Source of the DNA: Stomorhina lunata | Lineage: Eukaryota > Arthropoda > Insecta > Diptera > Rhiniidae | Assembly: GCA_933228675.1 (NCBI GenBank) | Contig: OW121744.1 | Span: 95,193,264-95,257,263 of the forward strand | Length of the DNA stretch: 64,000 nt | Direction: 5' to 3' | Part shown: piece by piece, positions 1 to 60,573 of the stretch | Position numbering within the stretch: position 1 is the first letter of the stretch | How the letters are laid out: every line of letters starts with the position of its first letter | Notes under the pieces: model-generated | Seen by the model: only the letters and a program-made list of their open reading frames with translations | What the model was told of the DNA's origin: nothing | Databases searched by the model: none | Position numbers and translations under genes: made by a program

Positions 1-64
1 GAAACCAAATTCCTCGACGCGTTTCGATGGTTGGTTAAGCCATCTCTTCAGGAGGATTATCCCC
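1..64 (-). ncRNA. Hammerhead ribozyme, type I, minus-strand copy
   Basis: Mirror image of the plus-strand ribozyme at 572-638. On the minus strand it reads stem I CCTC, core CTGAAGA, stem II GATGG/CCATC with a 9-nt loop, GAA, mini stem III ACGCGT, then C and GAGG closing stem I. The predicted cut lies between plus-strand positions 16 and 15. The outer part of stem I runs into the window edge, so the distal helix cannot be checked completely. All invariant core positions are present. Whether it is transcribed is unknown. Confidence 0.8.
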
Positions 65-330
65 AATTTAGACAGATCGAAAACCTCGCATTATTACTAA
101 ATTTACAAACATAACTATTAAGAATTATGTTCATAAACCAAAAGTAAAAGCGTAGATTATCGACTGAACAAAAACAAACATTTTTCAGTTTTCATCTACC
201 TTCACTTCCCACATTCTTGCTGTAGCCGTCGGCTACTATATGCAGAATGCTGTGAAGAAGGGGGGGGGTAAGATGTTTTAAAATAAACAAGTTTATTTTA
301 AAAAATAAGCTGAATGCATGCAGTTTTATC

Positions 331-380
331 AAAAAATAACAAATTAGTCGGGATGTAAATATTATTCAAAAAGAAGTGTA
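331..380. repeat. 50-bp segment inverted relative to 55453-55502
   Basis: Exact reverse complement of 55453-55502, the sequence that follows the ribozyme unit in the 55-kb copy. Here it sits inside the foldback loop, while the right arm of this copy runs instead into satellite DNA at 737. This shows that the left copy was rearranged by inversion. Confidence 0.85.
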
Positions 381-571
381 TTACAGCATTCTGCATATAG
401 TAGCCGACGGCTACAGCAAGAATGTGGGAAGTGAAGGTAGATGAAAACTGAAAAATGTTTGTTTTTGTTCAGTCGATAATCTACGCTTTTACTTTTGGTT
501 TATGAACATAATTCTTAATAGTTATGTTTGTAAATTTAGTAATAATGCGAGGTTTTCGATCTGTCTAAATT

Positions 572-638
572 GGGGATAATCCTCCTGAAGAGATGGCTTA
601 ACCAACCATCGAAACGCGTCGAGGAATTTGGTTTCTCC
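572..638 (+). ncRNA. Hammerhead self-cleaving ribozyme, type I
   Basis: A complete hammerhead core is visible. Stem I is TCCTC (580-584) with GAGGA (621-625). The core is CTGAAGA (585-591), matching CUGANGA. Stem II is GATGG (592-596) with CCATC (606-610) and a 9-nt loop. Then come GAA (611-613) and a minimal stem III, ACGCGT (614-619). The C at 620 is nucleotide 17, giving the preferred GUC cleavage triplet with the cut after 620. An outer stem I helix, GGGGA (572-576) with TCTCC (634-638), encloses an internal loop, the usual place for contacts with loop II. A very short stem III is typical of ribozymes in Penelope-like elements and animal retrozymes. ACGCGT is self-complementary, so two RNAs could form a dimeric stem III. 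Fold and identity are clear; activity is untested. Confidence 0.88.
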
Positions 639-736
639 GCAAACATTTTTTGGCTTTTTATCAATAAATTGATCTGTTACATTAATAAATAAATGTAACA
701 GGTTTGGGATCAAATGCAAATACACTTCTTTTTGAA

Positions 737-1850: not shown

Positions 1851-3685
1851 AAAACTGTTTAAATTTTTTTTCAAACAATATTTAAAAAATTAAAGCGTCA
1901 TTGTTTACAAAAATAATTGTATCGAATCGTATATTTTGTTCTGAAAATTGGATTTTGATTTGGTTTGTTGCATAGTTTGTTTTTGTATTTTCTGTAACAA
2001 TGCGGCACGAACCGAATTTGCACACATCCAAATCTCAACTGAATGCCTTTATTACTTATTTTCACGAGTTTCATTTATGATCGTTATTTAAAATCGTTTT
2101 TTAAGAAAACTACAAATTGTCTTCGGCTTCTGGTGGTAAGGGCTGCCTACTCCTGCTTATCAGAAACATAATATCTGCATAGATCAAACGAGTGAAAGAG
2201 GGAAGAGTTCGAAATTCTAAAAAGAAGTTTTAATTTAAAGCTATATATGACCTACCCGATATTTATATTGCAAAGAGAAAAAGTACAAAACCTTTAGTTT
2301 ATGATGACATCACAAAGTGAAAGAAGAAATCTTAAAATGTGGGTTATTTCTTAACAAATGATAATAAGTTAGAACAAAGCGCCAAGTTTCTGAATGTGTA
2401 GTGGAGCTAAAAGATAGGAAAGCTTAAAAGCATTGTTAATGCAAATTGGGGGTTTACATGTAGGGTGCTTAATGCTTGCTATTGCCAAATATATGCTGTG
2501 GCCTCAAACTAATTTTCTGAGCTTTCGGACAGAATAGTGTTATCAGTTGAAAGAAAAACTTTAAGTAACAAAATTTGTGTAGCAAAACCACATTAAAAAT
2601 ATACAAAATAGAGAAAAATACTCTTTAAAATATTATCAAAAAAATCTAAATAAAAAATTAACAAAATTAGAAAATCTTGCTATTTTTGAATAGTACACCC
2701 AAAATAGCACATAAAAAGAAGTCATACAATGGAAAAACCTTTGAGATGCATTCAAGCTAAATAATTTCATCTATTTTAGGATTTTCATTTCTTTTAGGTT
2801 TTTCATTTCTTTTAGGATTTTCATACAAATTTTGTTTGGCATCAATAGCCAGTAAGACATGAGCTTAACTAAGTCTGACTATTCATCATCGTCAAAAGTC
2901 ACATTTATAAAACATATCCAATATGAGGATTTTAAATTTTTTTTCAGCTTTCAGCTATTTATGTAGTTATATCTTTTCTATTTATAAGTTATTTTTTTCT
3001 AAAAAAAAATCTTTTGAACATTAAAACAATGCAGTCAGTAATACCGGGTATCCTGGTACTAATGGTGGTGCCCAGCAAAAAATAAGCGTTAAAAAGCAGA
3101 CACATTTTAATTAAATGTACAGACAAAGGACAAAACAAATGCTCACTTACACATGCACACAAATGCTCACTCACACATACATTAGAGAGATAAGGATAAA
3201 AAGAAATGTATTTTTACCACAGGACTCTACTTATAAAATAAGTATAAATGACTTTGTAGATATCAGGCATTACTGATGCTTCCTGGAAAGGATTTTTGCA
3301 ATTTTTTTAACGAAGAATTTGGATTAATGTATGTGTGTTGGAAAAGAAGAAAGGATATATTTTTTGGCTAATAGAATTTGACTAATTAAGATTTTTTAAT
3401 GAACTATATTTTACCTTCATAAAATATTTTTGGTCTAACGTTTTGTTAAATGGTTTCAAGATTATCTTCTTGCTGTAAGATGAGATTAGACAAAAGGGTA
3501 TAATTTATTGAAACGTAGCAGGAAAGGAACCATTTAATTAGCAAAAATTTTATATTTTTATTTAAATAGAGAAGCAGTTGCTTAGCTAATATATAGGCCA
3601 CAATGATCATTTCGATAGTCTATTGCCAAAACTCTATGATATAAAGATGTTTCACTTCTTTATATTAATCTGCCATATGGTCGTT
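1851..3685. other. AT-rich spacer, no gene seen
   Basis: Mixed AT-rich sequence with poly-A/T runs, a short CA-rich patch at about 3135-3182, and a local duplication of TTTCATTTCTTTTAGG near 2785-2820. No open frame has a recognisable product, and I see no clear transposon terminus. Confidence 0.6.
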
Positions 3686-3840
3686 TTGTAAAGTCCCATA
3701 AAAAATATAGTATAGCGCTTTACCTTTAAATCGGAAACAACTAATGGAAACGATTTCCCAATGAGAAAAAGTTAAGGCACACACACGTGGTCATGATACA
3801 TTTCAATGTTTGTGCTTTCTCATGCTTTTCCAAAATACTT
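3686..3840 (+). repeat. Dispersed flank repeat, copy 1
   Basis: Similar to 27410-27555 over about 145 bp. Shared blocks include CCCATAAAAAATA, TCGGAAA, CCAATGAGA and AAGGCACACACACGTG. Both copies lie just upstream of a satellite array, but the arrays belong to different families (A here, C there). Confidence 0.75.
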
Positions 3841-3879
3841 ACCCTAAAACATGCAAAATTTCCTCTAAAAATTAGACAT

Positions 3880-6370
3880 ATTTCAAAAATTTCTGATAAG
3901 AATAAAAAAAATTGTAAAAATATGATTTAAATATAATACATTTTTAAAAAATTTCCTATAAAAATAGAGAATTTTTCCAAAATTTTCTAAAAAGATAGAA
4001 AATTTTCTATAAAAATACAAAATTTCGTATCAAAATAATAAATTTCGTATAAAAATAAGAAATTTTTAAAAAATTTCGCATAAAAATATAAACTTTAGAA
4101 AATTTTCGAATAAAAATAAGAAATTTTTGAAAAATTTTCTATAAAAATAGGAAATTTTTGAAAAATTTTCTATAAAAATAGGAAATTTTTGAAAAATTTC
4201 CTATAAAAATAGGAAATTTTTGAAAAATTTCCTATAAAAATAGGAAATTTTTGAAAAATTTCCTATAAAAATAGGAAATTTTTGAAAAATTTCCTATAAA
4301 AATAGGAAATTTTTGAAAAATTTCCTATAAAAATAGGAAATTTTTGAAAAATTTCCTATAAAAATAGGAAATTTTTGAAAAATTTCCTATAAAAATAGGA
4401 AATTTTTGAAAAATTTCCTATAAAAATAGGAAATTTTTGAAAAATTTCCTATAAAAATAGGAAATTTTTGAAAAATTTCCTATAAAAATAGGAAATTTTT
4501 GAAAAATTTCCTATAAAAATAGGAAATTTTTGAAAAATTTCCTATAAAAATAGGAAATTTTTGAAAAATTTCCTATAAAAATAGGAAATTTTTGAAAAAT
4601 TTCCTATAAAAATAGGAAATTTTTGAAAAATTTCCTAAAAAAATAGGAAATTTTTGAAAAATTTCCTATAAAAATAGGAAATTTTTGAAAAATTTCCTAT
4701 AAAAATAGGAAATTTTTGAAAAATTTCCTATAAAAATAGGAAATTTTTGAAAAATTTCCTATAAAAATAGGAAATTTTTGAAAAATTTCCTATAAAAATA
4801 GGAAATTTTTGAAAAATTTTCCATAAAAATAATAAATTTTTGAAAAATTTCCTAAAAAAATAGTAAATTTTTGAAAAATTTCCTATAAAAATAGTAAATT
4901 TTTCAAAAATATCCATAAAAATAGTAAATTTTTGAAAAATTTCTTAAAAAAAAATAGAAAATTTTTGAAAAAATTACGATAAAAATAGGAATTTTTTGAA
5001 AAATTTCCTATAAAAATAGGAAATTTTTGAAAAATTTCCTATAAAAATAGTAAATTTTAAAAAAATTTAATATAAAAATAGGAAATTTTTGAAAAATTTC
5101 GCATAAAAATAAGAAAATTTTGAAACATTTCCTATACAAAAAGAAATTTTTGAAAAATTTTCTATAAAAATAGTAAATTTTTGAAAAATTTCCTATAAAA
5201 ATAGTAAATTTTTGAAAAATTTCCTATAAAAATAGCAAATTTTTGAAAAATTTCCTATAAAAATAGAAAATTTTTGAAAAATTTCCTATAAAAATAGAAA
5301 ATTTTTGAAAAATTTCCTATAAAAATAAAAAATATCAATAGTAAATTTTTGAAAAAATTTCCTTTAAAAATAGAAAATTTTTGAAAAATTTTCTATAAAA
5401 ATAGAAAATTTTTGAAAAATTTCCTATAAAAATAGGAAATTTTTGAAAAATGTCCTATAAAAATAGGAAATTTTTGAAAAATTTCCTATAAAATAGGAAA
5501 TCTTTGAAAAATTTCCTATAAAAATAGGAAATTTTTGAAAAATTTCCTATAAAAATAGGAAATTTTTGAAAAATTTCCTATAAAAATAGGAAATTTTTGA
5601 AAAATTTCCTATAAAAATAGGAAATTTTTGAAAAATTTCCTATAAAAATAGGAAATTTTTGAAAAATTTCCTATAAAAATAGGAAATTTTTGAAAAATTT
5701 CCTATAAAAATAGGAAATTTTTGAAAAATTTCCTATAAAAATAGGAAATTTTTGAAAAATTTCCTATAAAAATAGGAAATTTTTGAAAAATTTCCTATAA
5801 AAATAGGAAATTTTTGAAAAATTTCCTATAAAAATAGGAAATTTTTGAAAAATTTCCTATAAAAATAGGAAATTTTTGAAAAATTTCCTATAAAAATAGG
5901 AAATTTTTGAAAAATTTCCTATAAAAATAGGAAATTTTTGAAAAATTTCCTATAAAAATAGGAATTTTTTGAAAAATTTCCTATAAAAATAGTAAATTTT
6001 TCAAAAATATCCATAAAAATAGTAAATTTTTGAAAAATTTCTTAAAAAAATAGAAAATTTTTGAAAAAATTACTATAAAAATAGGAATTTTTTGAAAAAT
6101 TTCCTATAAAAATAGGAAATTTTTGAAAAATTTCCGTTAAAAATAGAAAATTTCCTTTAAAAATAGGAAATTTTTGAAAAATTTCCTATAAAAATAGGAA
6201 ATTTTTGAAAAATTTCCTTTAAAAATAGGAAATTTTTGAAAAATTTCCTATAAAAATAAAAAATTTTTGAAAAATTTCCTATAAAAATAAGAAATTTTTG
6301 AAAAATTTCCTATAAAAATAAGAAATTTTTGGAAAAGTTTTTATAAAAATCGGAATCTTTTTGAAAAATT
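3880..6370 (+). repeat. Satellite A, 31-bp tandem array
   Basis: Period 31 bp (TAGG at 4210, then 4241). Each unit consists of two nested palindromes: an 11-bp arm pair around AAAA centred on CCTAT-AAAA-ATAGG, and AAATTTTT-G-AAAAATTT. Units are nearly identical at about 4145-4830 and 5400-5990 and diverged at the edges and at 4830-5400. The variant stretch with TCAAAAATATCC at 4903 recurs at 6001, so a block of about 1.1 kb was duplicated. Open frames here are repeat artefacts. Confidence 0.97.
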
Positions 6371-7715: not shown

Positions 7716-8770
7716 AATGCACAATAGGGTGGGTCGTTTTTTGACTTTTGTCTCTGATCGACTTCTAAAATTGAAATTATATGGCCAAATTATGTCAATC
7801 GGAAGTGTGCAAAATATTATTGATTTATTTTTAGGATACGAGCCCGCGCAACGTGCCCAAAATTTTTGAGCCCAATTATGTGGGGAAAACTGAGAGTATT
7901 TGCAGTTTTTGCTGCATTTCGTTCATTTACAATTTATTTTAAAGATAAAAGATAATAAAATCTAAAAGTGAACTAATGCAGCTTTTATTGAAGTCATCAA
8001 TATTTGAAATCCATAAAACGTTTTTAAAGTTATTGCGATTTTCCCCCAAAAATTCGTGTCCTTGACAATACGCCTAAGGATACACCGCTAGAAAAAACTA
8101 CTTTGGACAAAAGCTCGCAAAGCAAGACATGATTTATCATTTTAAGACCTGTAAGTACTTTATAGTTTAATTTTGTTAAAATATAACAATATTTAATTAG
8201 TTTTTTTCATAATCGAAAATGGGTAATTTTTCTCAGGTGGGTTTTTAATTTTTTGAAAATTTTGTTAAACAAATATTACAAATTTGAATTTCTCTCATCG
8301 GTGTATTAAAATAGGTAAAAAAAGAAAATCAAACTCCAAAAAATTGAGGTCGATATCTCACACCATTTTGCCGTACCTTGTGTTCGAATTCGACGAATTT
8401 CGCAAAAAAGTAATTTTTTGCTCATAATTTGAGTAAATGCTTCATAAATCTTATTTATGTTCAATTTTAATAATGTTAATATGGAATAAAATTATCCATA
8501 CTATGGAAAATATAAGCAGGTTCTTTGTTTTTAAAATTGGGCAAACTTAACCCTTTTTTTCCGGAGGCAAAAATTAAAAATTTGATTTTTTGTATTTTTT
8601 TTTATTTTTTAAATACATATTGTTATTAATTTATTACTGAATTTTATTAAATATACTTAAAAGTAATTATTGTACACTATAACAAAGTATTTTTTATTAA
8701 AAAATATTTTAACCCTTTTTAGACATGGGGTCAAAAATGACCCAAGTTTTTTTTTTGGCTCTTTTTTCAA
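7716..8770 (+). other. Probable decayed dispersed repeat beginning TAGGGTGGGTCG
   Basis: Starts AATAGGGTGGGTCGTTTTTT, which looks like the end of a non-coding dispersed element. It then has less repetitive sequence (for example GAGCCCGCGCAACGTGCCC near 7850). No matching inverted end was found in the window, so boundaries are uncertain. The palindrome GGGGTCA-AAAA-TGACCC lies at about 8726-8742. Confidence 0.3.
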
Positions 8771-8774
8771 CAAA

Positions 8775-8830
8775 TTTTGATTAAAAACCATTAATGTTAT
8801 TATTTTGATTAAAAGCCAATAATGTTATTA
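8775..8830 (+). repeat. 28-bp direct duplication
   Basis: Two adjacent units beginning TTTTGATTAAAA at 8775 and 8803, differing at a few positions. Confidence 0.7.
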
Positions 8831-8885
8831 TTTGACACCAAGATTATTTTTTTTTATTATAAAAAATATTTTAAATATTTTGTAG

Positions 8886-8918
8886 ATAATTATAATTACC
8901 TCCCATAGGGATGCCTTC
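8886..8918 (+). repeat. 33-bp sequence also found inside satellite B
   Basis: Identical to 12447-12479. It includes TACCTCCCATAGGGATGCC, which is not AT-simple, so chance identity is unlikely. Confidence 0.85.
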
Positions 8919-8984
8919 CCTTGATAGAGTTTTTAGTCCTTTACAAACACAAATTTAGTTGTATTTAGATAATATTCAGCACAA

Positions 8985-9265
8985 ATATTGCTTATCATAA
9001 CCTTAATCAGTGTACCTAATTTTGTAGGAATCGGCCCATATTTGACCATACCTCCAATACAAGACACATTCTCAAAAGACGTTTATATACATATAAAAGG
9101 ACAAAAACCTGTATAACTCTAAAGATAAATGCATTTGATTACTTAAACTTTGCACAGATAAATATTTTCTCAATATAAATCAATAACCAAAATTTGGTAA
9201 CAATCGGTCCACAATTGACCCTAGCTCCCATATCAGGCCTTTAGCCGGAAATGACATAAATCTCG
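8985..9265 (-). mobile_element. Remnant related to ACAAGTAAG dispersed family
   Basis: On the minus strand it carries GGGAGCTAGGGTCAATTGTG followed by GACCGATTGTTACC, plus a second GGTATGGTCAAATATGGGCC. These match the repeated internal motif (GGAGCTATGGTCAAATGTGG then ACCGATT) of the family copies that follow. No ends are visible. Confidence 0.55.
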
Positions 9266-9283
9266 AAACTTTGAAAAAAAAAA

Positions 9284-9717
9284 AACAAGTAAGAAAGTGC
9301 ATTAGTCGGTCAAGCCCGACCATACGATACCCTTCACCACTAAGGTCAAAGGTGTTCTTTTTAGTGTATAAAGACAATTATTTGCTAAATTTTGCCATCA
9401 TACAAACATATTCTAAAAACTTTTAAATTTAAGCTGTTTCCGCCATATGGACTTATATGAGAGCTAGGGACCGATTATCTCGAAATTTGGCAAATTGATT
9501 ACAGTTGTCATAAAAATTATGTATGCTTAAAAACTAAACTTAAAATTCTCGTTATCTTCAGATTTATGAGCGTTTTAGTGAATTTTGTCTCATTTAGTGC
9601 GTTTTGAGAAAAGAGCTATGTAGTATGGGAGCTATGGTCAAATGTGGACCGATTTCAAGGAAATTCAATACAGTGATTTAAGTTTACACAAGTAGTATTT
9701 TTTTTAAATTTCATAAA
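9284..9717 (+). mobile_element. ACAAGTAAG-family dispersed element, 5' fragment (copy A)
   Basis: Begins AACAAGTAAGAAAGTGC after poly-A. It then has the small hairpin GTCGG..CCGAC, GATACCCTTCACCAC, and the motif ACTTATATGAGAGCTAGGG. It breaks off where copy B starts, so only the 5' half is present. No coding capacity. I know this motif as common in fly genomes but cannot assign a superfamily from the sequence. Confidence 0.8.
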
Positions 9718-28354: not shown

Positions 28355-28650
28355 AAACAAAAGTGAATTTCCCACAGAAAAGATAAAACTGAAAAATGTT
28401 TGTGTATTTCTGTTCAGATGATAATCTTAGCTTTATGTTAATAATTGTTTGACACAATAATTCTTATTTATTCTGTCCCACAAATAAGATATAATGTGTG
28501 TTTTTTGCACTGTCTAGAACTAGGGATGGCTTAACCAACCATTGAAACGAGACGAGGAAAGGTTTCCCCACCGACATTTTTGGTTTTATCAAAAAACTAT
28601 TTATTACAATATTAAATTACAGTAATAAATTAGCTTTTTAGTGCAATACA
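28355..28650 (+). mobile_element. Hammerhead-bearing element, diverged single arm
   Basis: Aligns with 431-705 with many differences: ACTGAAAAATGTTTGTGTAT, TTCAGATGATAATC, GATGGCTTAACCAACCATTG, AAACGAGACGAGG, ACATTTTTGGTTTTATCAA. The ribozyme is dead. CTGAAGA is replaced by sequence ending CTAGG, and the cleavage GTC has become GAC, while stem II and GAAAC are kept. Confidence 0.75.
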
Positions 28651-51624: not shown

Positions 51625-54600
51625 AGAAAATTTTTCAATCAAAATTTTTTTCGATAAAAAATTTTTCTATAGAAAATTTTTCGATAAAAAATTTTTCTTT
51701 AAAAAATTTTTTGTTCAGAAAAGTTTTTTAAAGACAATTTTCGATAAAATATTTTTCTATAGAAAACTTTTCAATAAAAACAATTTTCTATAGAAAATTT
51801 TTTTATTTAAAAATTCAAAAAAAATAATTCTTACAAAAATCTTCGATAAAAAAATTTTCGATAGAAAAATTTTTCTATAGAAAAATTTTCGATAAAAAAA
51901 TTTTTCTATAGAAAAATGTTCGATAAAAAAATTTTTCTGTGGAAAAATTTTCGATAAAAAAAATTTTTCTGTAGAAAAATTTTCGATAAAAAAATTTTTC
52001 TGTAGAAAAATTTTCGATAGAAAAATTTTTCGATAAAAAAATTTTTCTATAGGAAAATTTTCGATAAAAAATTTTTTCTATAGAAAAATTTTCGATAAAA
52101 AAACTTTTCTATAGAAAAATTTTCGATAAAAAAATTTTTCTATAGAAAAATTTTCGATAAAAAAATTTTTCTATAGAAAAATTTTCGATAAAAAAATTTT
52201 TCTATAGAAAAATTTTCGATAAAAAAATGTTTCTATAGAAAAATTTTCGATAAAAAAATTTTTCTATAGAAAAATTTTCGAAAAAAAATTTTTCTATAGA
52301 AAAATTTTCGATAAAAAAATTTTTCTATAGAAAAATTTTCGATAAAAAAATTTTTCTATAGAAAAATTTTCGATAAAAAAAATTTTCTATAGAAAAATTT
52401 TCGATAAAAAAAACTTTTCTATAGAAAAATTTTCGATAAAAAAATTTTTCTGTAGAAAAATGTTCGATAAAAAATTTTTCTGTAGAAAAATTTTCGATAA
52501 AAAAATTTTTCTGTAGAAAAATTTTCGATAAAAAAATTTTTCTGTAGAAAAATTTTCGATAGAAAAATTTTTCGATAAAAAAATTTTTCTGTTGGAAAAT
52601 TTTCGATAAAAAAATTTTTCTATAGAAAAATTTTCGATAAAAAAATTTTTCGATAGAAAAATTTTCAATAAAAAAATTTTTCTATAGAAAAATTTTCGAT
52701 AAAAAAATTTTTCTATAGAACAATTTTCGATAAAAAAAATTTTCTATAGAACAACTTTCGATAAAAAAATTTTTCTATAGAACAATTTTCGATAAAAAAA
52801 TTTTTCTATAGAAAAATTTTAGATAAAAAAATTTTTCTATAGAAAAATTTTCGATAAAAAAATTTTTCTATAGAAAAATTGTCGATAAAAAAATTTTTGT
52901 ATAGAAAAATTTTCGATTAAAAAATTTTTGTATGAAAAAATTTTCGATAAAAAAATTTTTGTATGAAAAAATTTTCGATAAAAAAATTTTTGTATAAAAA
53001 AATTTTCGATAAAAAAAATTTGGTATAGAAAAATTTTCGATAAAAAAATTTTTCTATAGAAAAATTTTTGATAAAAAAATTTTTCTATAGAAAAATTTTC
53101 AATAAAAAACTTCTTCTATAGAGAAATTTTCGATAAAAAAATTTTTCTATACAAAAATTTTCGATAAAAAAATTTTTCTATACAAAAATTTTCGATAAAA
53201 AAATTTTTCTATAGAAAAATTGTCGATAAAAAAATTTTGTATGAAAAAATTTTCGATAAAAAAATTTTTCTATAGAAAAATTTTCGATAAAAAAATTTTC
53301 TATAGAAAAATTTTTCTATAGAAAAATTTTCGATAAAAAAAATTTTCTATAGAAAAATTGTCGATAAAAAAATTTTCTATAGAAAAATTTTCGATAAAAA
53401 AATTTTTCTATAGAAAAATTGTCGATAAAAAAATTTTTGTATAGAAAAATTTTCGATAAAAAAATTTTTGTATGAAAAAATTTTCGATAAAAAAATTTTT
53501 GTATAAAAAAATTTTCGATAAAAAAATTTTCGATAAAAAAATTTTTCTGTAGAAAAATTTTCAATAAAAAAATTTTTCTATAGAAAAATTTACGATCAAA
53601 AAATTTTTCTATAGAAAAATTTTCGATAAAAAAACTTTTCTATACAAAAATATTCGATAAAAAAATTTTTCTATAGAAAAATTTTCGATAAAAAAATTTT
53701 TATATACAAAAATTTTCAATAAAAAACTTCTTCTATAGAAAAATTTTCGATAAAAAAAATTTTTCTATAGAAAAATTTTCGATGAAAAAATTTTTCTATA
53801 GAAAAATTTTCGATAAAAAAATTTTTCTATAGAAAAATTGTCGATAAAAAAATTTTTGTATAGAAAAATTTTCGATAAAAAAATTTTTGTATGAAAAAAT
53901 TTTCGATAAAAAAATTTTTGTATAAAAAAATTTTCGATAAAAAAAATTTGGTATAGAAAAATTATCGATACAAAAATTTTTCTATAGAAAAATTTTCGAT
54001 AAAAAAACTTTTCTATAGAAAAATTTTCGATAAAAAAATTTTTCTATAGAAAAATTTTCGATAAAAAAAATTTTCTATAGAAACATTTTCGATAAAAATA
54101 TTTTTCTATAGAAAAACTTTCGATAAAAAAATTTTTCTATAGAAAAATTTTCGATAAAAAAATTTTTCTATAGAAAAATTTTTGATAAAAAATTTTTCTA
54201 TAGAAAAATTTTCGATAAAAAAATGTTTCTATAGAAAAATTTTCGATAAAAAAATTTTTCTATAGAAAAATTTTCGATAAAAAAATTTTTCTATAGAAAA
54301 ATTTTCGATAAAAAAATTTTTCTATAAAAACATTTTTCTATAGAAAAATTTTCGATAAAAAAATTTTTCTATAGAAAAATTTTCGATAAAAAAATTTTTC
54401 CATAGAAAAATTTTCGATAAAAAAATTTTTCTATAGAAAAATTTTCGATAAAAAAATTTTTCTATAGAAAAATTTTCGATAAAAAAATTTTTCTATAGAA
54501 AAATTTTCGATAAAAAAATTTTTCTATAGAAAAATTTTCGATAAAAAAATTTTTCTATAGAAAAATTTTCGATAAAAAAATTTTTCTATAGAAAAATTTT

Positions 54601-55155
54601 CGATAAAAAAATTTTTCTATAGAAAAATTTTCGATAAAAAAATTTTGCTATAGAAAAATTTTCGATAAAAAAATTTTTCTATAGAAAAATTTTCGATAAA
54701 AATATGTTTCTATATAAATATTTTCTATAAAAATATGTTTCTGTAGAAAAATTTTCGATAAAAAATTTTTTTATATAAAAAAAAACTTTTTCATCTAAAA
54801 ATTTCCAATTGAAGAATTTGTTATTAAACAATTTCTATAAAAAACTTCTACAGAAAATTTTGTTACTAAAATTTTTCTATAGACAGTTTTCGATAAACAA
54901 ATTTTTTTTTCATAAAAATATTTTTCTATAAAAAGTTTTCGATAAAAGTATTTTTCTATAGAAAAATTTGCTATAAAAATATTTTTCTACAGAAATTTAT
55001 TTAAAATTTTATATACAAAAATATTTATATCGAAAAATCTCTTAAAAAAACCTTTTTTATTTAGAAATTTTTAAAAGAAACTTTTTCTATCTAAAAATTT
55101 CCAATTGAAGAATTTGTTATCAAAAACTTTCTATAGAAATAAACTTTAACAGAAA
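51625..55155 (+). repeat. Satellite G, 31-bp tandem array
   Basis: Period 31 (CGAT at 54446, then 54477): TTTTCGATAAAAAAATTTTT then CTATAGAAAAA. Most uniform at 54420-54690. Variants (GTATGAAAAAATTTTC; CTGTAG) cluster in blocks that recur, for example at 52900-53020 and 53850-53960. The last 400 bp decay into longer units. The hammerhead element follows directly. Confidence 0.97.
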
Positions 55156-55162
55156 TTTTACA

Positions 55163-55502
55163 GTGAAGGTAGATGAAAACTGAAAAATGTTTGTTTTTGT
55201 TCAGTCGATAATCTACGCTTTTACTTTTGGTTTATGAACATAATTCTTAATAGTTATGTTTGTAAATTTAGTAATAATGCGAGGTTTTCGATCTGTCTAA
55301 ATTGGGGATAATCCTCCTGAAGAGATGGCTTAACCAACCATCGAAACGCGTCGAGGAATTTGGTTTCTCCGCAAACATTTTTTGGCTTTTTATCAATAAA
55401 TTGATCTGTTACATTAATAAATAAATGTAACAGGTTTGGGATCAAATGCAAATACACTTCTTTTTGAATAATATTTACATCCCGACTAATTTGTTATTTT
55501 TT
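55163..55502 (+). mobile_element. Hammerhead-bearing element, single-arm copy
   Basis: Bases 55163-55468 match 431-736 with no difference I can find (constant offset 54732). The next bases, through 55502, are the sequence found inverted at 331-380. The order is: 5' part with ACTGAAAAATGTTTG, the ribozyme, TTTATCAATAAATTGATCTG, GGGATCAAATGCAAAT, and CATCCCGACTAATTTG. It starts abruptly at the edge of satellite G and is 75 bp from the related foldback at 55579. No protein is encoded. Confidence 0.88.
55304..55370 (+). ncRNA. Hammerhead self-cleaving ribozyme, type I (55-kb copy)
   Basis: Same sequence as 572-638. CTGAAGA is at 55317-55323, stem II GATGG at 55324-55328 with CCATC at 55338-55342, GAA at 55343-55345, mini stem III at 55346-55351, and cleavage is predicted after C55352. 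Stem I is TCCTC with GAGGA, plus the outer GGGGA/TCTCC helix. This is the only intact copy not facing an inverted partner, so it is the one most likely to fold as a ribozyme if transcribed. Confidence 0.87.
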
Positions 55503-55578
55503 GAAGAAATTTTTTTTAGCAAAAAGTTTGTTATTGAAAAATTTTCTATATAAAAAAATTTAAACAAAAATAAAAGTT

Positions 55579-56056
55579 ATTCGCACTTGATCCCAGTATT
55601 TTACAATTATTTATTAATATAATAGACAATTTATTGATAAAACCCGAAAAGTGTTTGAGGGGACTACCAATTCCTCGACGCTTTTGTATGGTTGGTTAGG
55701 CCATCATCTTCAGGAGGAGTATCCTTCTACTTTTAGACAGATCAAAAACCTCTCCTTATTACCTGTTTTACTAACAAAATTATTACGAATTATATTTGTA
55801 AATCAAAGGTAAAGAAAAGCTCATATTATCGAAAGTAAACACAGACATTTTTCAGTTTCATCTTCTTCATTTCACAGGTAGTAATGCAAAGTTTTCGTTC
55901 TGTCTAAAAGTTAGGGTACTCCTCCTGAAGATAATAGCCTTAGCAACCATCAACCATCGAGGAATTAGTTGTCCCCAGAAACAATTTTTGGTTTTTATCA
56001 ATAAATTGTCTATTACATTAATAAATAAATGTAATAGACTGGGATCAAGTGCAAAT
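55579..56056. mobile_element. Complete foldback element related to the hammerhead element
   Basis: The ends are inverted: ATTCGCACTTGATCCC (55579-55594) and GGGATCAAGTGCAAAT (56041-56056). Inside, the left half is the unit on the minus strand and the right half the unit on the plus strand, meeting near 55870-55880. Both ribozymes are broken. The minus copy (about 55671-55720) keeps CTGAAGA, stem I and GCGTC but has G12 changed and a poor stem II. The plus copy (55921-55962) keeps CTGAAGA but has lost the GAAACGCGTC segment. It is clearly older than the 55163 copy and shows the family's true termini. Confidence 0.85.
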
Positions 56057-56059
56057 AAT

Positions 56060-58000
56060 TTTTCTATTTAAAATTATTTATCACAAATTTTCTTTAGAAA
56101 AATTTGATATCAGACAATAAAAGATTTTGTTATCTTAATATTTTCTATAAAAAATATTTTATATCTTAATGAGAAAAAATTTCTATAGAAAAATACTCTA
56201 ATTATGGGATTTTTTTTTTCTATAGAAAATTTTTTCTAATAATGAAATACATTTTCTACAGAAAATAATAAAATATACTTTTTAGGTCTTTGGCATAAAA
56301 GAAAAGCATTGCATACTTTTGGGATGTATTTAAAATTAAATGCTTATAAATTAGCATTGAAGTGTACAATGTATTTTAATAAAAAACGTTATAAAAAATT
56401 TAAAATAATGAAAGCCCAGTCATTGGAAACAAGCGAGCGTAGCATATGGCGTACGTCTGGAAAATTGAACACAAAAAACTGACTGACACCTTTTCTATAA
56501 CTCCCAACGAATACAAATGAATTTTATGGAAAAACTGGATTGTTTATTTTATTAAAGTGTAATTAACTATGAACAAATCACTCAGATATTAAACCTGCAA
56601 TATTTTTTTTTAATATTATTCTTTTTTACAGAAAAAAAATAATAGAAATATGTTTACATTGTCTGTGATGCATAAAATTTTTCCCTACATCCCTTAAAAT
56701 ATGCAAATTATTTATGAAAAAAATTACACTTTGACTTATGCCTCGTTTAATTTAAAGTTAAATATTATTAAAGTTTAAAGACCGTAGGTTAATCAAAGAT
56801 TACAATTTCTTTCTAAGTTATGAAAAATGTTTAAAAAGAGAGGGGGCGTTTAAAATGATTGATGGTGGGAAACAAGTTAAACTTCATAATATGGAAAAAT
56901 TCTAGGTATAAGAAAATATTTTAAAGGTATGATTGTCGGCGAGTTAGAGCTTGCATTACCCTAGTTGCAATGTAATAAAACCTTATTTAGTTGATTTTAA
57001 CAAGATTATTTTTTTCAAAAAGGTTTCAATGAGGTGCTGGGTTTCTTCAGTTTTAAATTGTTCCATAGCATTTTGCATTGTGACCACTGATTATAGATGT
57101 CAAAGCTTTAAACTATACACCTTTCATGTCAAACTGACTAACAGGCAATTACAGACTTCATCAAGGCGCAACGAATGGTAGAGCTTGGCAAAAAATTAAA
57201 AAAAAAATGTATTTCTCCATATCTCTTTACCTTAAACATAGATAGATCTGCCATTTAACACCACGCATTTACAGCAAAATGACTGCAGCTACAAAGTACG
57301 AGTAGAGAAACTAAGTTTTTGTCTTGGTCTGTTTAACATCAAGCCTCTATTTAGTATGGCTGATTTCCACTTCAGTCAGTCTTAAAACACAGAAAACGAG
57401 CAAAAAATCTTAAAAAAAGTAGCTTGCCTTTTTTCTGTTTTAGTTTGATACCAAAATTGCAATAGGTGCTAATTACATATGGCTAAAATGTAAGGCAAAA
57501 TGTAATCGCAACTCACTTACTATAAAGGCATCAGGCTATTTTCTTCAGTATTTTTTTCATTTCTTTCTTAAGCGGCGGCAACAATCATCGTCCTCATCAC
57601 TTTTGCTCTGAAAAATAAGCTCAAGTTTAGTTGTTGAGGGTAAATTACGGAAATCAGTCTTGACTTGGCATATCAAAGTCAATTAACTCTTTAAAGGTAT
57701 TACATTCAGACACATGAAGTAACATACAAATTTACCTTGAAATTCAATGTTAGTAACATTTTCTCGCTATCATTTACAAGAGCGCCAGAAGTTAAAGAGA
57801 AGAATAATTGCATTTGAGTTTTGTTTTTGATTCAAATTAAGAGCTTCGCTTAGGAAATTTCAAATGTCAAACTTTAAATTTGGAAAACTGTAAAATTGAA
57901 CAAAAGATGCAATTAACAAATTGTCTTGAATTCCATTAAATGAAACTAAAGATTAATTGTAGGACACACAACGATTGTTTATAAAATGTAATCAATTTTT
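56060..58000. other. Spacer; one candidate terminal exon
   Basis: A short satellite-like patch lies at 56090-56280. The rest has less simple sequence. A 76-codon plus frame (56951-57181) is unrecognised. The only coding-like signal is the minus-strand stretch at 57557-57607. Confidence 0.5.
57557..57607 (-). CDS. Candidate last coding exon fragment (16 codons and stop)
   Basis: On the minus strand an acceptor-like CTTATTTTTCAG is followed at once by an open stretch reading SKSDEDDDCCRRLRKK and TGA. The acidic run followed by basic residues, and its GC-richer DNA, stand out in an AT-rich region. I found no upstream exon or clear polyadenylation signal, so this may be chance. Confidence 0.2.
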   Translation of the reverse strand, partial: SKSDEDDDCCRRLRKK

Positions 58001-59399: not shown

Positions 59400-59690
59400 A
59401 GTAATTCTGTTATGCAAATAGTGAGCGAAATTCCTTTTCCGTAACGTCAAATTCCGGATCCAGAATTTCTAATATATTAGATATTCCTTAAATTGTCTCG
59501 TAGTGAAAACAGCAATTTCTATGCTGGATTCGGGGTTTGCTAAAAGCAATTTTGGCGAGATATTCAATGCATTTTGTCGATTCTTCTTTTGAAGTTTGAA
59601 GCTGCAAAATAGCTTCTTTTCCATCAAGAAACATCACCCTTTTAAAGATTTTGTGGTATTTCTTATTTTATCGGTTTCAGAAATCTTAGT
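59400..59690 (-). pseudogene. Decayed coding fragment, unidentified (possibly hAT-like)
   Basis: The minus strand has a stretch readable as LDGKEAILQLQTSKEESTK then CIEYLAKIAFSKPRIQ, a break, then LEILDPEFDVTEKEFRSLFA and stop. Codon-like composition is much better than in surrounding spacers, but stops and frame changes are present. I do not recognise the family. Its position beside the hAT-like end suggests they belong together. Confidence 0.35.
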
Positions 59691-59706
59691 TGAGTTTTAG
59701 ATAAGG

Positions 59707-59776
59707 CAGCTCCAAAATCCTTGTGCCAGCTGCTGTAGCTGGGGGATTTCTAGCATGATTAACCCTTGGAGTAATA
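59707..59776. repeat. Dispersed repeat, left part of interrupted copy
   Basis: Matches 58371-58437 up to GATTAACCCTTGGAGTA, then the mariner-like element begins. Confidence 0.8.
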
Positions 59777-60573
59777 AATGGTGTCCCAACTAGAACGCAA
59801 TTTTTAAATTTTAAATGTAGCAATTGAATTGTTTCTCTGACTACATGATATGTGGCACGGTCTTGTTGAAACCACATCCCCTCCAAATTCATTTCTTCAA
59901 TTAAAGGCAAGAAAAAACTGGTTATCATTTCACGAGACCGAACACAATTGACTGTTTGCGCTTGACCTGCCTCATTTTCATCAAAAAAAGGTCCAATGAT
60001 TCCTCCGGACTAAAAACCACACCACACAGTGACACATTGAAGATGCATTTGCTTCTCGTGAATCACTCGAAGATTTTCCTCACCCCAAATGTGCCAATTC
60101 TGCCTAATGACGAGGCCATCAAGATGGAAATGGGCCTCGGCACTGAGATAATTTTATCCGCAAAATCTGAATTTTCATGTTGTCTCTCGAATACCCAATT
60201 AACGAACTCCCTTCGCTGTCCAGGCTCATTAGTTCCTGAGTCAATTGAAGATGCAAATCTTTCGTCAAAATTCACCGCAAAGTGGATTTGGAGACACCAA
60301 TTTGCTGAGCGACATCATCACGTACAGCTGTGACATTTTCGGTCGATCGACCTGGTCGATCCATTAACCTCTTTACAGTTGACTCTTTTGGAGCATTATT
60401 GTGACTCTAAATTAATCGCAAATTGCGAACTGTAGCCGCAAAACTTTCACTATTTTGGTAACCTAATTTTTACTAAACTCATACTTTCTACTAGCAAACA
60501 ATAACAATTGTTCAAATGTCAAACAATGACACTCGCGCCAAATTTAAAAATTGCGTTATAGTTGGACACTTTG
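59777..60573 (-). mobile_element. Tc1/mariner-like element, internally deleted, TA-flanked
   Basis: Inverted ends of about 30 bp: plus-strand GTGTCCCAACTAGAACGCAA TTTTTAAATT from 59781, and minus-strand AGTGTCCAACTATAACGCAA TTTTTAAATT from 60570. TA dinucleotides flank the element (59775-59776 and 60574-60575). Length 797 bp; relatives with a complete transposase would be about 1.3 kb. The right inverted end follows a partial transposase, so the C-terminal coding part was lost by internal deletion. It sits in a dispersed repeat whose uninterrupted copy is at 58371-58512. Confidence 0.85.
59812..60480 (-). pseudogene. Mariner-superfamily transposase pseudogene
   Basis: Read on the minus strand across frames. 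N-terminal DNA-binding part: SFAATVRNLRLI, SHNNAPKESTVKRLM, DVAQQIGVSKSTLR, stop, ILTKDLHLQ. Then REFVNWVFERQ and FADKII, a frameshift, AEAHFHLDGLVIRQNWHIWG, ENLRVIHEKQMH, VTVWCGF, a stop where Trp is usual, SGGIIGPFFDENEAGQ, and MWFQQDRATYH. In this family the first catalytic Asp lies in SDEAHF; here it is Ala at the frameshift. The second, in FQQD, is kept. The third catalytic region is deleted. It cannot encode an active enzyme. The plus-strand frame at 59956-60333 is its shadow. Confidence 0.85.

Follow-up and report, generated by a model that had tools for sequence, protein, structure and literature searches.

The hammerhead motif that we analysed in a 64-kb window of Stomorhina lunata DNA (the window being the whole stretch of 64,000 nucleotides under study) is part of a short, non-coding dispersed repeat, present in many copies across the 728-Mb genome (104 contigs). 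This repeat is probably a non-autonomous retrozyme, whose circular RNA would be copied by the reverse transcriptase (RT) of a Penelope-like element (PLE). The motif represents the presumed self-cleaving part of a 464–485-nt non-coding unit, consistent with a non-LTR retrozyme carrying a minimal PLE-type hammerhead. The genome shows two alternative ends, head-to-head geometry, sequence shared between junctions, circular permutation, tandem laps, some shared rare variants and conservation of the hammerhead. What is new here is the insertion evidence, which from genomic sequence appears to link reverse transcription of the PLE type with a hammerhead repeat that is non-coding; at the level of titles and abstract openings, with the subscription literature largely outside, no comparable family is described in flies.

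The motif, a minimal type I hammerhead of subfamily A, spans positions 572..638 on the plus strand and was identified from the sequence, from a motif scan with shuffles and from the conservation of the block between subfamilies A and B. Outer stem I is formed by GGGGA (572-576) and TCTCC (634-638), and inner stem I by TCCTC (580-584) and GAGGA (621-625). The CTGAAGA core (585-591) is followed by stem II, in which GATGG (592-596) pairs with CCATC (606-610) around loop II, CTTAACCAA (597-605). The GAA(A) core (611-614) leads into the minimal palindromic stem III ACGCGT (614-619), C17 corresponds to position 620, and cleavage is predicted between 620 and 621. Stem II GATGG contains an ATG at 593-595. 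Complementarity points to a possible loop-loop contact (600..633) between AACCAA of loop II (600-605) and TTGGTT in the internal loop of stem I (628-633). All type I hallmarks are present, namely CUGANGA, GAAA, the G-C opening of stem II, a UH cleavage site and an open stem I; as read from its letters, 572-638 is thus a complete minimal type I hammerhead motif, as the earlier note had reported for all invariant elements. Exact copies occur at 55304..55370 on the plus strand, where sequence and motif scan agree, and at 1-64 on the minus strand, found by sequence comparison, both as had been claimed.

Scanning the window with stems II and I of at least 4 bp, thresholds that were set once the motif was already known, returned exactly these three copies and none besides. 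Since the three are exact copies of one family, they count as one event in any argument from chance. Two hundred dinucleotide shuffles yielded five matches in total at 4 bp or more and none with both stems of at least 5 bp, which bears out the contention that a chance match is very unlikely. We consider a fortuitous hammerhead within an ordinary satellite or SINE very improbable: the motif was picked post hoc from a scan of raw sequence and has no Rfam match (see below), but the shuffles do not reproduce it, the best-conserved 50-column window between subfamilies A and B is the hammerhead (46/50), and PLE-type ends occur in the same element.

Three subfamilies of the repeat were distinguished, with first-look candidate counts that differ from copy numbers and with candidate sets that may overlap. 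Subfamily A has a 464-bp unit and gave 759 first-look candidates in a genome search with 316 bp of the element; the best 40 of these were scored, their main matches are 99-100% identical, and by its sequence the subfamily appears young. Subfamily B, found through a diverged copy adjoining A in locus L021, has a 485-bp unit and 3715 first-look candidates, and among the best 40 of these the other 39 scored copies are 93-95% identical to the query. Subfamily C is older: with the window copy at 55560-55876 as query it gave 3061 first-look candidates, and the remaining 39 main matches among the best 40 have 80-86% identity. The unit lengths derive from head-to-tail spacing, 464 bp in L025 (A) and 485 bp in L044 (B). 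GC content is 32.3% in unit A and 31.3% in unit B, the longest open stretches measure 79 aa and 85 aa, respectively, and no LTR structure was seen in the family.

Identity between subfamilies A and B is 75% over 382 columns and 72% over an alignment of 510 columns, in which the hammerhead block agrees at 42/46 positions and the remainder at 326/464. The four differences in the block concern N7, the single free position of the core, and three bases of loop II; the A unit in this alignment is that of L025, which is one loop II base off the family majority. The core of subfamily B is the canonical CTGATGA. In both A and B the ATG of stem II runs into a stop at codon 3, and by sequence the two together are perhaps a relic of a PLE ORF start. 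A B-like variant at L040 1588-1682 (minus strand) lacks this stop, so that its frame stays open for longer, a possible trace of the same start. Four B copies (L049, L050, L052 and L057) are bordered on their outer side by the same sequence, TCCTTGTTATTGG or a version differing at one base, so that a B copy seems to be carried within another repeat. In L072, two B arrays (3259-4176 and 8695-9612) lie 5.4 kb apart in a 2.2-kb direct repeat that is 95% identical, an arrangement that judging from the sequence is a local duplication. No ORF of at least 100 aa lies between these arrays; a PLE was sought there and not found, the single ORF of that size in L072 (105 aa) sitting outside.

The Rfam covariance-model check, set beforehand as the refuting test for the hammerhead, produced no match above threshold. 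Rfam 15 at the gathering score gave no match in the whole 64-kb window. With the E-value limit raised to 5 for the window (146 matches) or to 10 for region 380-760 (six matches), no hammerhead family appeared. On subfamily B, RF00008 scored 15.6 bits (E 3.1) for both motifs of L044, against a gathering score of 48.5, and three unrelated Rfam families scored at least as high within the same stretch. In reviews, PLE hammerheads are characterised as minimal and without helix III (PMC6155905, PMC7761336), so the miss is unsurprising, although we still count it as a failure.

Thermodynamic folding did not favour the hammerhead either. The 67-nt A motif folds into an alternative structure at -16.1 kcal/mol, compared with -12.8 kcal/mol for the hammerhead fold, and for the B motif the values are -19.4 and -14.9 kcal/mol. 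In the folded 464-nt circle, the pair probabilities are 0.008 for stem I and 0.094 for stem II. The one nested hammerhead dimer that was computed has an energy of -23.9 kcal/mol, whereas two motifs cofolded without constraint adopt a different structure at -35.7 kcal/mol. As an observation on the wider unit, GAAAAATGTTTG at about 178-191 and CAAACATTTTTT at about 366-378 of unit A are complementary and largely kept in B; on sequence grounds, pairing between them would enclose the hammerhead region in a single RNA domain.

We further compared the motif in 115 places, giving 36 distinct rows, whose blast matches cover at least 85% of the motif query, a selection that favours conserved copies. 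Over the 36 distinct rows, 92.1% of cells in the hammerhead pairs are paired, against 34.7-58.8% in slid controls and 91.7% with shuffled columns. Two-sided changes were observed in 3 of 22 pairs, one in outer stem I and two in the loop-loop contact; inner stem I and stem II show no such change. Covariation is accordingly weak, and the case for the hammerhead is carried by conservation. The AACCAA/TTGGTT contact is paired in 87.5% of cells over the 36 distinct copies, and four of its six pairs are kept in B. These data bear on a reading in which the element is mobilised by a PLE while its hammerhead is dead or vestigial and kept for another role, such as RT binding. In its favour are the minimum-energy folds, the lack of an Rfam match and the GAA element, which is broken in 3 of the 36 distinct rows; moreover, a PLE hammerhead studied biochemically did not cut unless its protein was supplied, and in vitro insertion could do without this ribozyme (PMC11167929). 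Against this, the stem and catalytic positions are kept between A and B while changes fall at N7 and in loop II, and CTGANGA is intact in all 36 of these rows, conserved though their selection makes them. We judge a vestigial hammerhead unlikely.

The insertion ends point to PLEs. Most copies of subfamily A terminate at one of two alternative 3' ends, T1 (...CTTCTTTTTGA) and T2 (...TTATTTTTTGA), located 37 nt apart, and B copies have T1 and T2 ends of their own (...AGTAAAACTTTTTAA and ...GATAAACCTTTTTAA), 40 nt apart. For A, 67 copies in 39 loci (L001-L039) comprise 44 T1 ends, 15 T2 ends and 8 ends elsewhere; the L025 array enters this count as two pieces, which makes one T1 a splitting artefact, and one of its ends, counted as 'elsewhere', is merely where the locus sequence stops. 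Both copies of L032, which lie in a local duplication, are included. For B, the 29 copies divide into 12 T1, 13 T2 and 4 elsewhere. Copies entered these counts with an identity of at least 94% (A) or 88% (B) and a length of at least 60 bp; the window itself, which is the same place as L001, and the duplicate B loci L045, L050, L052, L057, L065 and L067 are left out. Because the loci are the best 40 matches per query, the counts of ends, and likewise those of copies spanning the predicted cut given below, favour copies that contain the query.

When copies of subfamily A are arranged head-to-head, the two ends are combined in a non-random manner. Among 20 such A pairs, 13 are T1/T2, one is T1/T1, none is T2/T2 and six include an unclassified end; random pairing predicts 38% T1/T2, and the probability of at least 13 among the 14 classified pairs is 3e-5. 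The pair in L025, one of the unclassified ones, becomes T2/T1 once the whole insertion is viewed as L073. In B, one of four head-to-head pairs is clearly T1/T2 and three have an unclassified end.

The outer junctions of these pairs were examined for target duplications in 13 rows, to which the L001 and L010 pairs contributed none; two rows join ends of different insertions (L007 and one of L024), leaving 11 usable. Exact duplications of 9-12 bp occur at both outer junctions in 7 of the 11 (L006, L024, L033, L034, L035 twice and L036), which exceeds the 4 bp used as a criterion for non-LTR retrozymes. In the other four (L005, L016, L023 and L031), 7-13 bp are common to the junctions with a shift of 1-3 bases. 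The targets are AT-rich, so junction sharing may partly be due to chance; the least repetitive exact duplications are AGATTTTTTTAT and AAATTTTTTG.

Long, near-perfect inverted arms with target duplications would also be expected of a DNA transposon or foldback element with the inverted repeats as terminal repeats. However, the arms vary in length and start, they end on the outside in two distinct internal sequences, numerous copies stand alone and lack their 5' part, and the units lap in tandem. We rejected such an element on its variable arms and regard it as extremely improbable. A further possibility for the head-to-head copies is self-priming on an antisense template, the mechanism put forward for rotifer Penelope on the basis of palindromes at the inverted junctions (PMC3846280). 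This appears doubtful for the present family, in which the two arms meet at arbitrary points of the unit and the outer ends correspond to two different RT starts, more simply explained by two independent primings.

The 5' starts are spread around the whole A unit (KS against uniform, p=0.16), and none of the 67 A copies starts within 5 nt of the predicted cut. Sixty of the 67 span that cut, a proportion biased upward, as the search query itself spans it. A linear RNA cut by the hammerhead would end at the cut, whereas a circle or an uncut tandem RNA would not. Taken together, the two 3' ends, head-to-head copies, short target duplications and circular permutation are, as far as genomic copies reveal, a PLE signature carried by these insertions.

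Several such copies are present in the window. One head-to-head insertion consists of a plus arm at 383..735, a 5'-truncated A copy ending at T1, and a minus arm at 1..382, which contains the hammerhead at 1-64 and whose 3' end, at T2, is located outside the window, some 140 bp to its left (L001 931-1453). The copy at 55162..55504 (plus) is a single 5'-truncated A copy ending at T2. An older subfamily C copy at 55568..55876 (minus) has a degraded core, with CAAA for GAAA, and its head-to-head partner at 55878..56080 (plus), also older, has a degraded hammerhead. At 28381..28625 (plus) lies an old relative, about 68% identical to A, that lacks the 5' half of the hammerhead. AT repeats of the AAAATTTTTCTATAG type form very long arrays in much of the window (for example 745-1500 and 51760-55000) and in the flanks of many loci, and such arrays are a frequent insertion target of the family. 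Elsewhere in the window, a 107-aa open stretch occupies 59689-60009 (minus) and presumably reads as a transposase remnant; Pfam gave no significant match there, just a sub-threshold DUF7398, and the assignment was dropped.

Evidence on the template comes from the insertion L073, which comprises a minus arm of 1060 bp and a plus arm of 1690 bp, 5.9 units in all. Its laps are nearly identical, with one differing base. A loop II variant is found in 6/6 of its hammerheads, compared with 1/60 other A motifs. Its poly-C tracts have 8 C in 5/5 cases, against 10/33 elsewhere (range 6-22); as 8 C is the commonest length elsewhere, the tracts add little. An 11-bp match, AAAATTTTGTA, appears to occur at both ends. 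Over all A loci, rare variants are shared at 20.8% of variant sites between tandem laps (17 pairs), at 7.2% between inverted arms (39 pairs) and at 0.7% between different loci (3333 pairs). This sharing rests on about five sites in tandem laps (L025, L023) and about five in inverted arms (L005, L007, L036), and because the copies are near-identical, most pairs share no variant.

We also searched for sequences that could supply the enzyme. A profile search of the genome with PF01541 gave 14 candidates, all of which were scored, and two GIY-YIG places; with just two matches genome-wide, an abundant PLE lacks support. At the weaker place, C2:141353859-141354092, a 143-aa frame reads IYVGTTKNKLKTRLSGHK...TALATHCVESGH...KRFTLEMLHI, which we take to be of Penelope type; Pfam confirms GIY-YIG in this fragment, and of its 28 homologues one carries an organism name, Haematobia irritans. 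In a genome search with PF00078, 150 of 15826 candidates were scored, and these yielded places alone, among which PLEs are not separable. The window contains one ORF of at least 150 aa, and five translated stretches from the window gave no RT match. The earlier observation that no RT of this kind is seen thus holds within the window as far as it was searched, but the genome has at least one Penelope-looking GIY-YIG ORF fragment. Across 74 loci (276 kb), six open stretches of at least 150 aa have ordinary composition, none of them within the element; five gave no family match to RT or GIY-YIG, and the sixth (L074) is an ATAT repeat. Most of these loci extend over 3.3 kb, and a distant ORF could escape. 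A frame neighbouring the element in L055 has a sub-threshold match to zf-AD, a domain typical of insects, and a 639-aa open stretch at L070 705-2621 (plus), about 3 kb from a B array, has no Pfam match at E 0.01. Within the element itself, no ORF with RT and EN is present: the units are closed and have no open stretch longer than 85 aa. A hammerhead repeat without an ORF is not an autonomous PLE; being dispersed and non-coding, with tandem and inverted copies and PLE-type ends, the family conforms to the earlier proposal of a non-autonomous element resembling the hammerheads of PLEs and the retrozymes of animals.

The repeats could also be solo or truncated pseudo-LTRs (pLTRs) of an autonomous Penelope with a 464-485-nt pLTR, for which tandem transcripts would serve as template with no circle involved. 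Autonomous PLEs have pLTRs with minimal hammerheads, bear tails, and occur as tandem arrays and as inverted copies (PMC11167929, PMC3846280). In PMC11167929, the PLE ORF starts with an ATG at the beginning of hammerhead stem II, where our units also have an ATG, with its stop at codon 3, and mutants of the hammerhead (HHR) left insertion in vitro unaffected. In addition, uncut tandem RNA could mimic a circle. Such an origin is nevertheless unlikely: the 464/485-bp units are closed, with longest open stretches of 79 and 85 aa, RT and GIY-YIG are unmatched in the five scanned stretches from the 74 loci of mostly 3.3 kb, and the 5.9 nearly identical units on the two arms of L073 are most simply explained by a circle.

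Returning to the retrozyme reading, we infer cleavage, the circular RNA, the order of events and the identity of the enzyme as follows. Tandem copies would be transcribed, and the hammerhead would cut the transcript into unit-length RNA that is then ligated into a circle, after the model of animal retrozymes. A Penelope-like RT/GIY-YIG endonuclease, acting in trans, would nick both strands of an AT-rich target. Reverse transcription would start inside the RNA at T1 or T2, 37-40 nt apart and with a common T-run ending, and the RT would travel a variable distance around the circle. If both target strands prime, the T1 and T2 cDNAs would meet head-to-head and leave inverted, 5'-truncated copies within a short target duplication. 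For the specific form of this scheme, a rolling-circle, twin-primed Penelope synthesis in which both target ends prime on one RNA circle, we see an about even chance.

This family has much in common with the metazoan non-LTR retrozymes as outlined in PMC7229834: short non-coding tandem units, a type I hammerhead, a GC content below 50% and dispersed copies. The retrozymes described there have canonical hammerheads and demonstrated RNA circles, whereas the S. lunata family has a minimal palindromic stem III and a putative RNA circle. Cervera & de la Pena (2020) list insects among retrozyme hosts and suggest that LINEs or PLEs do the mobilising, with PLEs as the favoured candidates (PMC7229834). 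The role of PLEs was proposed there from shared hammerheads, tandem copies and co-occurrence (PMC7229834, PMC7761336), while in the present family PLE-type insertion ends are documented.

With PLEs, in turn, the family shares a minimal hammerhead without helix III (PMC11167929, PMC6155905, PMC7761336) and an ATG in stem II, and it differs from them, as presented in those sources, in having no ORF, a closed 464-485-nt unit and thousands of first-look candidates. A PLE examined biochemically has two adjacent internal RT starts that match a 30-40-bp tail, extends both strands and uses AT-rich targets (PMC11167929). Rotifer Penelope has head-to-head inverted pLTRs, one of them with a 31-bp tail, and target duplications of 8-10 bp, and its pLTRs are described as sufficient for mobilisation in trans (PMC3846280). 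The RT starts 30-40 nt apart, the head-to-head copies, the AT-rich targets and the short duplications are thus shared with PLEs. The T1/T2 pairing differs: PMC11167929 observed no difference in RT start between the top and bottom strands.

Two motifs could base-pair with each other over 6 bp through the palindromic stem III ACGCGU, which recalls PLE hammerhead variants that, in work by Lunse et al. in 2017, reportedly cleave as dimers.

The presence of PLE-type ends on non-coding hammerhead repeats makes the link between retrozymes and PLEs directly testable in one genome. The pairing of T1 with T2 also supplies evidence from the genome about the completion of a PLE-type insertion, whose steps still await validation according to the 2024 biochemistry (PMC11167929). 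If true, twin priming on one circle would account for the PLE 'tail' as well as the head-to-head copies, and retrozymes and PLEs would be joined as parasite and helper.
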